Program-made: the position numbers and the translations under genes
DNA from: an uncultured Lachnospiraceae bacterium
GTDB lineage: Bacteria > Bacillota > Clostridia > Lachnospirales > Lachnospiraceae
Assembly: GCA_944381515.1 (NCBI GenBank)
Contig: CALWLM010000118.1
Location: forward strand, 1-37,136
Direction of reading: 5' to 3'
DNA length: 37,136 nucleotides
In this document: one piece after another, positions 8 to 6,173 of the stretch
Layout of the letters: every line of letters begins with the position of its first letter
Numbering within the stretch: the first letter of the stretch is position 1
Notes under the pieces: model-generated
Databases searched by the model: none
The model's input: the letters and a program-made list of their open reading frames with translations, nothing else
What the model was told of the DNA's origin: nothing

Positions 8-20
8 TATAATATAACCA
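8..20 (+). promoter_or_regulatory. -10 promoter element and probable transcription start of the riboswitch leader
   Basis: A perfect TATAAT lies at 8-13, so transcription would begin near position 20, just before the first riboswitch stem at about 28. The -35 element would lie before the window starts and cannot be seen. Confidence 0.55.
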
Positions 21-27
21 ACAATAT

Positions 28-214
28 GTTCGGAAGAGGATAGCCCTAGACGCCCGCGTCCTTGCGCGGGGGCCGAAGAAGCAACGCTGGAGAGAGCCGC
101 TCTTTCTCCGGCAGAAACTGACAGGCAAAAGGAAGGTTATCGGACGAGACTCTGGAGAGAACGCATAAAGCGTCGCCTACGCGGCTACAACCAACTGGCA
201 AAAGGACAGAGAGA
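28..214 (+). promoter_or_regulatory. Tandem glycine-type riboswitch (divergent)
   Basis: Two consecutive aptamer-like units carry glycine-riboswitch signatures. Unit 1 (about 28-135) has GCCGAAGAAGCAA at 72-84, a hairpin with arms GCTGGAGA/TCTCCGGC at 86-112, then AAACTGACAGGCAAAAGG. The linker and unit 2 (about 148-214) contain GACTCTGGAGAG followed by GGCAAAAGGACAGAG. Stem P1 of unit 2 pairs CTCTG (150-154) with CAGAG (207-211). Divergence is clear: the usual GGAGAG/CUCUC pairing is not kept in either unit, and unit 2 lacks the CCGAAGG core, having GCCTACGCGGC instead. Glycine is the expected ligand by family, but a changed ligand or a damaged second aptamer is possible. Confidence 0.7.
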
Positions 215-252
215 TGCGGATGTGTTAAGTATCCGTATTTCCCTGTCTTTTT
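205..252 (+). terminator. Riboswitch-controlled intrinsic terminator
   Basis: Arms 205-221 and 231-247 form a 17-bp stem with one mismatch and two G-U pairs, a 9-nt loop and a TTTTT tail. The 5' arm shares bases 207-211 with the 3' strand of aptamer-2 P1, so ligand-stabilised P1 and the terminator exclude each other. This predicts transcription read-through when ligand is bound. Confidence 0.85.
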
Positions 253-384
253 GTATAAAAATAGCATTATTCAAATAACGTCCTGATTCAGTATCCTGAA
301 CTGGGATGGGAATCATGGACAGGAACCCTGGACGGGAAATCATATTGTCGGGAGCGGGAATAAAATCCTAGGAGGAAGACAAAG

Positions 385-3454: not shown

Positions 3455-3483
3455 ATCATAACTCGTTTTTTCTGCTTTGTCAA
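3455..3483 (-). promoter_or_regulatory. Promoter of the HAD hydrolase gene
   Basis: On the minus strand TTGACA (3478-3483), a 17-bp spacer and TATGAT (3455-3460). It is back to back with the nanE promoter, the two -35 elements being 15 bp apart. Confidence 0.7.
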
Positions 3484-3498
3484 GAGAAAAACAGGTCG

Positions 3499-3526
3499 TT
3501 GACAAAAATAATTTCCGTTATATAAT
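3499..3526 (+). promoter_or_regulatory. Promoter of the nanE-nanK-rpiR operon
   Basis: TTGACA (3499-3504), a 16-bp spacer and TATAAT (3521-3526), both perfect. A repeated operator-like sequence occupies the spacer. Confidence 0.8.
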
Positions 3527-3548
3527 CAAATCAGAAAATAATTTCCGT
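3505..3548 (+). promoter_or_regulatory. Repeated operator-like site, probably for the RpiR-type regulator
   Basis: AAAATAATTTCCGT occurs at 3505-3518 and again at 3535-3548, exactly 30 bp apart, or about three helical turns. The second copy contains the dyad GAAA-ATAA-TTTC. The first fills the promoter spacer and the second lies just after the expected transcription start, a typical repressor layout. RpiR-family operators often contain GAAA..TTTC half-sites, and the operon encodes an RpiR regulator; the link is inferred. Confidence 0.5.
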
Positions 3549-3581
3549 AACGATTTTTACACTGTTTGGGGAGGTATGTTC

Positions 3582-4316
3582 ATGGAAAAACAGGAATTTT
3601 TTGAGAAAATCAAAGGCCGGATGATCGTTTCCTGCCAGGCGGTGCCCGGTGAGCCGCTCTATGTGGAGGAAAAGTCGATTATGTATCTGATGGCCAGAGC
3701 GGCCAAGATGGCCGGAACTCCTGCCATTCGCACCAGCAGCGTGCGGGATGTGGCGGCGATAAAGGAGGAGACGGGGCTTCCTGTCATTGGACTGATCAAG
3801 ATTCAGTATCCTGGCTTTGAGAGCTATATCACTCCTACCATGAAAGAAGTGGACGAGCTCTATGCGGTCGGCAGCGATGTGATTGCTCTGGACTGCACTT
3901 TCAGCAGGCGCGGCGATGGAAGGACGGTCAATGATTTTATTCGTGAGGTCAGAGCAAAGTACCCGGATCAGCTGCTGATGGCGGATGTCTCTACCTACGA
4001 GGAAGGGGTTAATGCCTGGGAGCTGGGAATGGATATGGTGGGAACGACCATGAGCGGTTATACGCCCCAGTCTCCTAAGCTTGACGGCCCTGATTATGAG
4101 CTGGTGAGAAGACTTTCATCCAAGATTAGCGTGCCGGTGATCGGAGAGGGAAAGATCCATGAGCCCGGCCAGGCTGTGGAGATGCTAAAGGCCGGAGCCT
4201 ACGCCATTGTCGTTGGCGGAGCCATCACCAGACCGCTGGAGATTGCCCAGAGATTTATGAAGGCCATTGATGATGCGGCGGAAAATACTGATAAGGCCAG
4301 AGCAGAGAAGGCGTGA
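3582..4316 (+). CDS. nanE: N-acetylmannosamine-6-phosphate 2-epimerase
   Basis: A 244-residue TIM-barrel enzyme that converts ManNAc-6-phosphate to GlcNAc-6-phosphate in sialic-acid catabolism. Family features include IVSCQAVPGEPLY near the N-terminus, VIGLIKIQYPG with the catalytic-type Lys73, LDCTFSRRGDGRTV, LLMADVSTYEEG, GTTMSGYTP and VIGEGKIHEP with Glu189. The start at 3582 is preferred to an earlier frame because GGAGG lies seven bases before it; an ATG two codons earlier sits too close to that site. It is the first gene of the operon. Its last 15 bases, including the stop, form the first unit of a 15-bp tandem repeat that runs into nanK. Confidence 0.95.
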   Translation: MEKQEFFEKIKGRMIVSCQAVPGEPLYVEEKSIMYLMARAAKMAGTPAIRTSSVRDVAAIKEETGLPVIGLIKIQYPGFESYITPTMKEVDELYAVGSDVIALDCTFSRRGDGRTVNDFIREVRAKYPDQLLMADVSTYEEGVNAWELGMDMVGTTMSGYTPQSPKLDGPDYELVRRLSSKISVPVIGEGKIHEPGQAVEMLKAGAYAIVVGGAITRPLEIAQRFMKAIDDAAENTDKARAEKA

Positions 4317-4421
4317 GCAGAGAAACTGTGTTCAGAGAAAGCTTGTGCGGAGAAAGCATGAGAAGCGAAGGCATGAGAAGTGAAAACATGGGAAGAAAAA
4401 ACATGGGAAGAGAAGATATGG
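4302..4421 (+). repeat. 15-bp tandem repeat across the nanE/nanK junction, one start codon per unit
   Basis: Eight consecutive 15-bp units, consensus GMAGAGAAAGCATGA, occupy 4302-4421, with a decayed ninth after them. Each carries a purine-rich SD-like tract followed by GTG, TTG or ATG in the nanK frame, at 4313, 4328, 4343, 4358, 4373, 4388, 4403 and 4418. Because the period is a multiple of three, copy-number change would lengthen or shorten the N-terminus without a frameshift. Confidence 0.9.
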
Positions 4422-5323
4422 GAGACGAAAAGATTGCGGTCTGCGACATAGGCGGGACAAAGATCAAGTCTGCTTTGTGGAACGGCAGAGAACTTACGGG
4501 CGAGAAAGAGACGGATACCCAGGCCTGGCAGGGAGGGGAAGCGATTCTTTGCCGGGTGGAGGAGCTTCTCTCTTCCATGGGGGCGTTCGATGCGGTGGGA
4601 ATCAGCACGGCTGGTCAGGTAAATCCGCTGGACGGCAGCATCCTTTATGCCAACAGCAATATTCCGGGCTATACCGGAATGGCCGTGGGAAGACGCCTGG
4701 AGGAAAGGTTCGGCGTGCCGGCGGCGGTGGAGAACGATGTCAATGCGGCTGCTCTGGGCGAGGGTTACTGCGGAGCCGGAGCGGGACACAAAGATTTTCT
4801 GTGCATTACATACGGCACGGGAGTGGGCGGAGCCATTGTGACTGGCGGCCGGCTGTACCGCGGCAGCGGCTTCTCTTCCGGAGAGTTTGGCGGAATTGTC
4901 ACCCACCCGGAGGCGGTGCGGGAGAATGAGCCCTACAGCGGCTGCTATGAGCGCTATGCCTCCACTACGGCCCTGGTGGAGCGGATGAAGACCTATGACG
5001 GACAGCTGAACAATGGCCGTCTTATCTTTGCGCAGCTGGAAAATCCGCAGGTGAGACAGATCGTGGACGAGTGGATTGAGGAGGTGCTCCATGGTCTGGT
5101 GACTCTGATTCATATTTTTGATCCTTCCTGCGTGATTCTGGGCGGCGGGATTATGGCACAGAAATATATATTGGATCAGATACGGCAAAAAATCGGCAGA
5201 AGACTGATCCCCTCTTTTGCCGGAGTGCAGATCAGTCCGGCCGGTCTGGGCAACAGGGCCGGACTGATGGGAGCTGTTTGCATTGCGGAGGAAAGACTGC
5301 GGAGGGAAAGTTATGCAGAGTGA
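4358..5323 (+). CDS. nanK: ROK-family kinase, probable N-acetylmannosamine kinase
   Basis: A kinase of the ROK family that would phosphorylate ManNAc before NanE acts. The phosphate-binding loop is VCDIGGTKIKSALW, and VENDVNAAALGEGYCGAGAG with ITYGTGVGGAIV forms the sugar/ATP region. The start is uncertain: eight in-frame starts 15 bp apart precede the conserved fold. I use the ATG at 4358, which has the best SD (GGAGA), giving 321 residues; 4418 would be the shortest and 4313 overlaps the nanE stop. The canonical ROK zinc motif (CxCGxxGCxE) is reduced to YSGCYERYAS, leaving one cysteine, so it is probably zinc-independent. The 3' end overlaps the next gene by 11 bp. The ManNAc role rests on context. 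Confidence 0.88.
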   Translation: MRSEGMRSENMGRKNMGREDMGDEKIAVCDIGGTKIKSALWNGRELTGEKETDTQAWQGGEAILCRVEELLSSMGAFDAVGISTAGQVNPLDGSILYANSNIPGYTGMAVGRRLEERFGVPAAVENDVNAAALGEGYCGAGAGHKDFLCITYGTGVGGAIVTGGRLYRGSGFSSGEFGGIVTHPEAVRENEPYSGCYERYASTTALVERMKTYDGQLNNGRLIFAQLENPQVRQIVDEWIEEVLHGLVTLIHIFDPSCVILGGGIMAQKYILDQIRQKIGRRLIPSFAGVQISPAGLGNRAGLMGAVCIAEERLRRESYAE

Positions 5324-6173
5324 TTTCCTGACACGAATCAAGAATACTTATAATCAGTTTGGAGCGGCGGAGGCCAGGGTGGCGGACCGGGTGCTTTTGG
5401 ACCCGCAGCGGGTTGTTTTTATGTCCATCAGCGAGCTGGCGGACAGCTGCAAAGTCAGCGACAGCACGGTGTTTCGCTTCTGCCAGAAGCTGGGGGTCGG
5501 CGGTTATCAGGAATTTAAGACCCTCCTTTCCCTGGGGATTCGGGAGGATAAAGATACGGCCGGAGAAGGGGAGGCGGAGAAGTATAATGAAAATGCGACT
5601 CCCTTTATGAGGCGGGCCGCCGGCATTCTGGAGACGGACGTGGAGGCCCTGCGGGAAACCTGCGCCGCTGTCCGGGAGGAAGATATCAAAGAAGTGGTGG
5701 GGCTGCTTCACGAAGCCCGCCGGATTGCCTTTTTTGGGGCGGGAGTCAGCCTGCTGTCCGCCATGCAGGCAGCCAACCGGTTTACCCGGATTACGAACAA
5801 GGTGAGCTGCGTTCAGGATACACATTTGCAGGCCATGCAGGCGGCTCTTTTGCAGCCTGGGGATGCGGCGGTGATCTTCTCCTATTCGGGAGCGTCCAAA
5901 GATACGGTTCAGACCGCGCAGATTGCCAAAAAAGCGGGGGCTCGCCTGATCTGTATCAGCCGGTTTTCCAAGTCGCCTTTGTCCGGGTACGCGGATATGC
6001 TGCTGATTTCAGGGGGAAACGAGGGCCCTCTCCAGGGAGGCTCGGCCTCGGCGGTGATGTGCCAGCTGTTTTTGGCAGATGTGCTCTATGAGGAATATTA
6101 CAGGAGATACTACGAGGAATGCCGGGCCAACCATGAAAAAACCAGCGCAGTCATAGCGGACAAGCTGTACTGA
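5313..6173 (+). CDS. MurR/RpiR family transcriptional regulator
   Basis: A 286-residue regulator with an N-terminal RpiR helix-turn-helix (about residues 1-77; FMSISELADSCKVSDSTVFRFCQKLG is the recognition region) and a C-terminal SIS sugar-phosphate-binding domain (about 120-250; FFGAGVSLLSAMQAANRFTRI and VIFSYSGASKDTVQTAQIAKKAGA). Such proteins sense phosphosugars; NanR regulators of this family respond to ManNAc-6-P or related intermediates. The start at 5313 has GGAGG seven bases upstream and overlaps nanK by 11 bp, indicating coupling. It is the likely ligand of the duplicated site at 3505-3548. Whether it also controls the transporter operon is unknown. Confidence 0.92.
   Translation: MQSDFLTRIKNTYNQFGAAEARVADRVLLDPQRVVFMSISELADSCKVSDSTVFRFCQKLGVGGYQEFKTLLSLGIREDKDTAGEGEAEKYNENATPFMRRAAGILETDVEALRETCAAVREEDIKEVVGLLHEARRIAFFGAGVSLLSAMQAANRFTRITNKVSCVQDTHLQAMQAALLQPGDAAVIFSYSGASKDTVQTAQIAKKAGARLICISRFSKSPLSGYADMLLISGGNEGPLQGGSASAVMCQLFLADVLYEEYYRRYYEECRANHEKTSAVIADKLY

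Follow-up and report, generated by a model that had tools for sequence, protein, structure and literature searches.

The window analysed here covers 37,136 bases at the start of a contig of 102,896 bases (window start is contig base 1). It opens with a structured RNA leader in front of an oxidoreductase gene, which raises the question of what this RNA senses and which metabolism it controls. A sequence-only reading had described the leader as a tandem glycine-type riboswitch with a divergent core, and its coordinates and anatomy hold. RF03166 (glycine-GGAnGA) is the one RNA found by Rfam in the window, matched over its full length with 163.8 bits against a cut-off of 110, and the leader almost certainly belongs to this known class. 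The divergence that had appeared unusual is real as far as the altered core is concerned, but it belongs to a known class and is not peculiar to this leader. In full length, two-unit structure and core sequences, we find no important difference between the window RNA and RF03166; it is an additional member of an already catalogued class, and it adds a gene context that suggests a ligand. What is new here is this genomic context and the ligand and pathway proposal.

Table 1. Features of the leader and of the gene behind it, in window coordinates.
Feature	Position	Strand	Basis
-10 promoter element TATAAT	8..13	+	sequence; -35 position would be off contig end
tandem riboswitch glycine-GGAnGA, RF03166	30..213	+	163.8 bits, E 3.3e-36, model 1-177 of 177; covariation
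aptamer unit 1	39..141	+	P1 39-46/134-141; Rfam alignment, variant vs canonical alignment
aptamer unit 2	150..211	+	P1 150-154/207-211; Rfam alignment
intrinsic terminator	200..252	+	fold -27.3 kcal/mol; U-run 248-252; 5' arm includes aptamer-2 P1 3' strand 207-211
ribosome binding site GGAGG	371..375	+	sequence
carboxyspermidine-dehydrogenase-like oxidoreductase (saccharopine dehydrogenase superfamily), 415 aa	385..1632	+	PF03435 + PF16653; PDB 8deb E 8e-39

The Rfam alignment, together with an alignment of variant and canonical RNAs, reveals how the two units are built. Unit 1 is flanked by outer pairs (30-32/145-147), and its core comprises CCUAGAC (45-51), GCCGAAGAAG (72-81) and AAACUGACAGG (115-125), the last segment holding the variant core CUGACAGG. 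In the Rfam alignment, the core of unit 2 comprises GGAGAG (154-159), CGCCUACGCGG (174-184) and CCAACUGG (191-198), with the variant core ACCAACUGG at 190-198; variant cores are therefore present in both units. The GGAGAG/CUCUC pairing is lost in both units as first described, although GGAGAG itself is retained in unit 2, where only the CUCUC partner is replaced by CCAACUGG. The absence of CCGAAGG from unit 2 was read correctly, with CGCCUACGCGG in its place. Base U69 of the V. cholerae aptamer, which we take to be a contact base within the changed CUCUC segment, serves as a lead only. The promoter of the window leader is only half visible, the contig beginning within it, so that of the promoter claimed earlier the -10 element alone is seen; a -35/-10 pair (at most three mismatches) lies upstream of the RNA in 24 of 29 related leaders.

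RF00504 (gcvT motif), the family of canonical glycine riboswitches, detects unit 2 only, with 30.2 bits against a cut-off of 32. The window RNA shares with this family the two aptamers, the outer pairing, common GGCAAAAGGA segments and the P1/terminator layout, but it lacks the GGAGAG/CUCUC core in both units as well as CCGAAGG in unit 2 and CUCUCAGG, and it precedes other genes. We note that the RF03166 cut-off of 110 bits also lets in canonical tandem glycine riboswitches at 110–125 bits (L051-L060, L063 and similar loci), from which the variant type is cleanly parted by the core motifs; none of the canonical switches inspected scored near 163 bits on RF03166. Matches of 95–125 bits across the phylum were rejected as extra members, all those inspected having canonical cores, as were L187 and L229, which both precede gcvT. 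No RNA at the inspected survey loci combined core motifs of the variant and the canonical type. The leaders of L010, L115, L128 and L129 carry variable-stem insertions that bring the RNA to a total of about 240–260 nt, with unchanged cores.

Covariation was evaluated in 17 diverse relatives. Pairing cells hold standard pairs in 91.7% of cases, two-sided changes occur at 32 of 50 pairs, and the covariation score of 0.545, against 0.202 for shuffled alignments, is lost when the partner strand is slid. The structure is thus far beyond chance expectation. Our own model, built from these 17 sequences, returned 66 matches, 63 of them variant.

The terminator had been described as overlapping aptamer-2 P1 through its 5' arm, and this is what we see (hairpin 200-252, shared strand 207-211). 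In the window leader, the terminator excludes aptamer P1, as in ON riboswitches, and the strand overlap is kept in 48 of 59 leaders. On the basis of this overlap, the RNA is very probably a transcriptional ON switch: by analogy with canonical glycine switches of the same layout, a ligand-stabilised P1 should block termination.

Of 71 dehydrogenase orthologues (70 of them testable), 51 were found with our own model to be preceded by the variant RNA. Orthologous genes lacking the leader had been named in advance as evidence against the association, and there are 19 such testable orthologues; 51 of the 70 nonetheless carry it, and the gene tree indicates repeated loss. Carriers of the RNA occur on either side of the deepest splits of this tree, and the well-supported branches require at least seven changes, for which reason we regard it as probably old and repeatedly lost. 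The carriers belong to seven Firmicute families (Lachnospiraceae, Peptostreptococcaceae, Thermotaleaceae, Anaerovoracaceae, Erysipelotrichaceae, Oscillospiraceae and Christensenellaceae), and the nearest orthologue carriers, with protein identities of 90% and 86%, are labelled Lachnospiraceae, from which the window's genome takes its family name here. The variant RNA is rare, being found in 6 of 299 genomes of a family sample and 7 of 392 of an order sample (the window's genome counted in both); in a class sample it was found in the window's genome only, one canonical match having been removed, and in viral contigs the aptamer-2 core was not matched. All 12 variant RNAs of the family and order surveys precede either the dehydrogenase (8) or a permease–dehydrogenase operon (4). 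One group of RNA-less orthologues (L091, L095, L099, L153) is accompanied by an XRE-cupin regulator and Pot genes. At L133, a c-di-AMP riboswitch (L133:5877-6002, 86.5 bits) stands directly before the dehydrogenase orthologue, replacing the glycine-GGAnGA RNA; when the RNA-less orthologues were searched for another known riboswitch that could give away the ligand, this was the only one found.

The product of the controlled gene was initially called saccharopine-dehydrogenase-like. The superfamily is right (domains PF03435 and PF16653), but all four strong solved matches are carboxyspermidine dehydrogenases (CASDH; 8deb, 4rl6, 4ina and 8h4z), homologous over the whole length, and saccharopine reductases are not its nearest solved relatives. 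Two of these four solved proteins have themselves been re-annotated from saccharopine dehydrogenase to CASDH (PMC10413350). In B. fragilis CASDH, residues E188, H228, E229 and E230 are proposed to act in catalysis and substrate positioning (PMC10413350); a numbered alignment reveals all four conserved in 72 of 72 orthologues. Contrary to CASDH, all orthologues carry Val in place of Ser144, the protein reaches only 144.6 bits on the equivalog NF043000, whose 800-bit cut-off was set for carboxynorspermidine synthase, and the gene is accompanied by transport genes instead of a decarboxylase partner. The best relative found, adjoining a true nspC, scores 421 bits on the same model.

Among 26 genomes with the gene or a paralogue, only one holds a carboxyspermidine decarboxylase (nspC) above the cut-off, and there a distinct and closer relative of CASDH adjoins nspC; in the window's genome the nspC score is 20 bits, below the cut-off. 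As the decarboxylase is absent in 25 of the 26 genomes, we rejected a role of the gene in spermidine biosynthesis. Since the catalytic residues are conserved yet the decarboxylase partner is missing, the substrate is probably a related amine and the pathway a different one.

The gene neighbourhood indicates which pathway this may be. Of the 71 orthologue loci, 17 have a Pot (spermidine/putrescine-type ABC) transporter module within a few kb of the gene, with a P-II-like gene adjoining PotD in 11 of the 17, and in four loci an APC permease follows the gene. Both closest relatives of the window's gene are preceded by PotA-B-C-D in the same orientation. In the window's genome, a PotD homologue is found near the end of the neighbouring contig C72; the C72 end (stretch G000:C72:1-868) aligns to the relative L083 up to base 4715 and the alignment of the window starts at 4869. 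Because the two align about 150 bases apart, the Pot arrangement is very likely present in the window's genome as well, across the gap. The best solved matches of a PotD adjoining the gene are spermidine/putrescine-binding proteins (224 and 218 bits). A putrescine aminotransferase above the cut-off was found near two loci. At the L144/L206 locus, which is without the variant RNA, the gene is accompanied by a putrescine aminotransferase (656.7 bits; equivalog cut-off 612) and by iron alcohol dehydrogenase, GABA-transaminase-like and aminoaldehyde-dehydrogenase-like genes; at the other, L205, the aminotransferase lies several genes downstream. In most leaders the dehydrogenase alone is under control, and Pot or APC genes occur at a minority of loci, some of them divergent or at a distance of several genes.

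A longer RNA-led operon is seen in four genomes of one family, where a permease, a dehydrogenase paralogue and a beta-alanyl-CoA:ammonia lyase follow one another (closest solved protein of the lyase, PDB 4mtu, E 2.5e-79). The operon dehydrogenase (SDH2) is a distant paralogue with an HDE instead of the HEE triad. A CoA-acylating aldehyde dehydrogenase is found between paralogue and lyase in two of the four operons, in one of which the lyase gene was read as two separate pieces, and one of the four genomes has a putrescine aminotransferase (657.7 bits, cut-off 612) and a second aldehyde dehydrogenase further down. The lyase is common and multicopy in this family (41 of 58 genomes), which weakens its adjacency as evidence. 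An unrecognised reaction of glycine with 2-oxo acids, raised at the outset, finds no support in these neighbourhoods, which point to polyamine and beta-alanine metabolism.

We favour, with modest confidence, an explanation in which the RF03166 RNA is an ON switch for polyamine (aminopropylamine) catabolism and responds to a non-glycine ligand from polyamine breakdown. That the controlled genes form a polyamine-catabolic regulon is reasonably likely judging from their context. The link to polyamines comes from the Pot modules, the PotD matches, the putrescine aminotransferase and the APC permease near the gene, and that to beta-alanine from the lyase held by the RNA-led operons. In the ligand-free state, the 3' strand of aptamer-2 P1 would pair into the terminator and transcription would halt; with ligand bound, P1 would form, the terminator would be prevented and the dehydrogenase gene transcribed, making the riboswitch the inducer switch of a catabolic pathway. 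In this pathway, a polyamine would be imported and the CASDH-like enzyme would oxidatively cleave its aminopropyl group, most likely converting spermidine to putrescine and 3-aminopropanal, which amounts to the CASDH reaction reversed and without the carboxylate. The oxidative direction is the most likely one because these organisms are without carboxyspermidine decarboxylase. 3-Aminopropanal would then be converted to beta-alanyl-CoA by the CoA-acylating aldehyde dehydrogenase and deaminated to acryloyl-CoA, while putrescine would be processed through putrescine aminotransferase.

The genomic context suggests spermidine, another polyamine or beta-alanine as the ligand, and not glycine. As the substrate inducer, spermidine would be the natural first candidate, and beta-alanine is chemically closest to glycine; spermidine itself is a tentative choice. 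A pocket that descends from one for glycine offers it little room. That a variant aptamer can come to sense a polyamine has a precedent: a SAM-I variant riboswitch senses spermidine and acts as an OFF switch of biosynthesis (PMC10853860). Both RNAs are rare variants of an abundant class and are associated with polyamine genes, but the window RNA has another fold and is proposed to turn on uptake and breakdown in response to a ligand that is so far a candidate.

Two other readings concern the identity of the ligand. An N-linked amino-acid conjugate (saccharopine, an opine, carboxymethyl-lysine or a carboxy-polyamine), imported by the transporters and cleaved by the dehydrogenase, would suit a superfamily that works on N-alkyl amino acids, an ancestral pocket that bound an alpha-amino acid, and the conserved active site of CASDH, an enzyme that yields an amino-acid/polyamine conjugate. 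However, the closest match of the one solute-binding protein examined is the spermidine/putrescine-binding PotD, and the downstream enzymes of the RNA-led operons handle beta-alanyl-CoA and aldehydes, so that we consider a conjugate unlikely. The ligand might also be specifically beta-alanine, with the dehydrogenase acting in its production or use, which would be a special case of the polyamine-catabolic explanation. Beta-alanine is the next homologue of glycine and hence the smallest chemical step, and the lyase is found in the RNA-led operon in four of four genomes of one family; in contrast, neither Pot transporters nor putrescine aminotransferase count as beta-alanine genes, and many genomes of the operon family have ammonia lyase genes without the RNA. 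This narrower version, too, appears improbable to us.

Glycine itself fares far worse. A drifted ordinary glycine riboswitch would explain the shared architecture and clan, as well as the GCCGAAG and GGCAAAAGG segments kept in unit 1. Yet both pockets are altered alike in all relatives, unmixed with canonical cores, no glycine genes lie downstream, and the window's genome has a separate canonical tandem glycine switch upstream of gcvT/gcvH-like genes. Glycine variants with altered cores have moreover been reported in a review to reject glycine (PMC9481103), and we infer that these include RF03166. Because of this report and the separate canonical switch, the ligand is probably not glycine, a possibility that the sequence-only reading had raised, and continued glycine sensing is very improbable. 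A structure without ligand control, be it a relic or a plain attenuator, would accord with the literature searched, in which one paper names the glycine-GGAnGA class and none gives a ligand for it. The strong covariation, core nucleotides that are invariant over the seven families and the conserved terminator overlap all speak against this reading, which we find scarcely credible.

Taking up the polyamine-catabolic explanation again, the gene contexts from dozens of genomes leave only a few candidates, all purchasable, for what the glycine-rejecting variants bind. They also point to an undescribed anaerobic route by which gut bacteria, Coprococcus comes and Faecalicatena contorta among them, would break down polyamines, and which would bear on gut polyamine levels. 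Should the ligand be a polyamine, spermidine first among them, a further riboswitch fold for polyamines, the second, would be at hand, and it would be the first to turn on polyamine uptake and fermentation, via a new NAD(P)-dependent dehydrogenase that cleaves aminopropylamines and feeds beta-alanyl-CoA; we offer this as a speculative possibility.

Some further observations concern the loci themselves. The genomes of L105 (G1047) and of L107/L111 (G1049) have 8–10 CASDH-like paralogues each, some in tandem, and two RNA-controlled dehydrogenase copies each (L105 and L184; L107 and L111). In an operon at L207 (G1057:C19), polyamine transporter genes lie between two different dehydrogenase paralogues, SDH and SDH'. 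A P-II-like nitrogen regulator is located next to PotD in the polyamine ABC transporter operons of L120, L135, L137, L144 and others. Further along the window, at 3477-6173, genes for a NanE epimerase, a ROK kinase and an RpiR-type regulator stand in a row and form an amino-sugar (N-acetylmannosamine) cluster.
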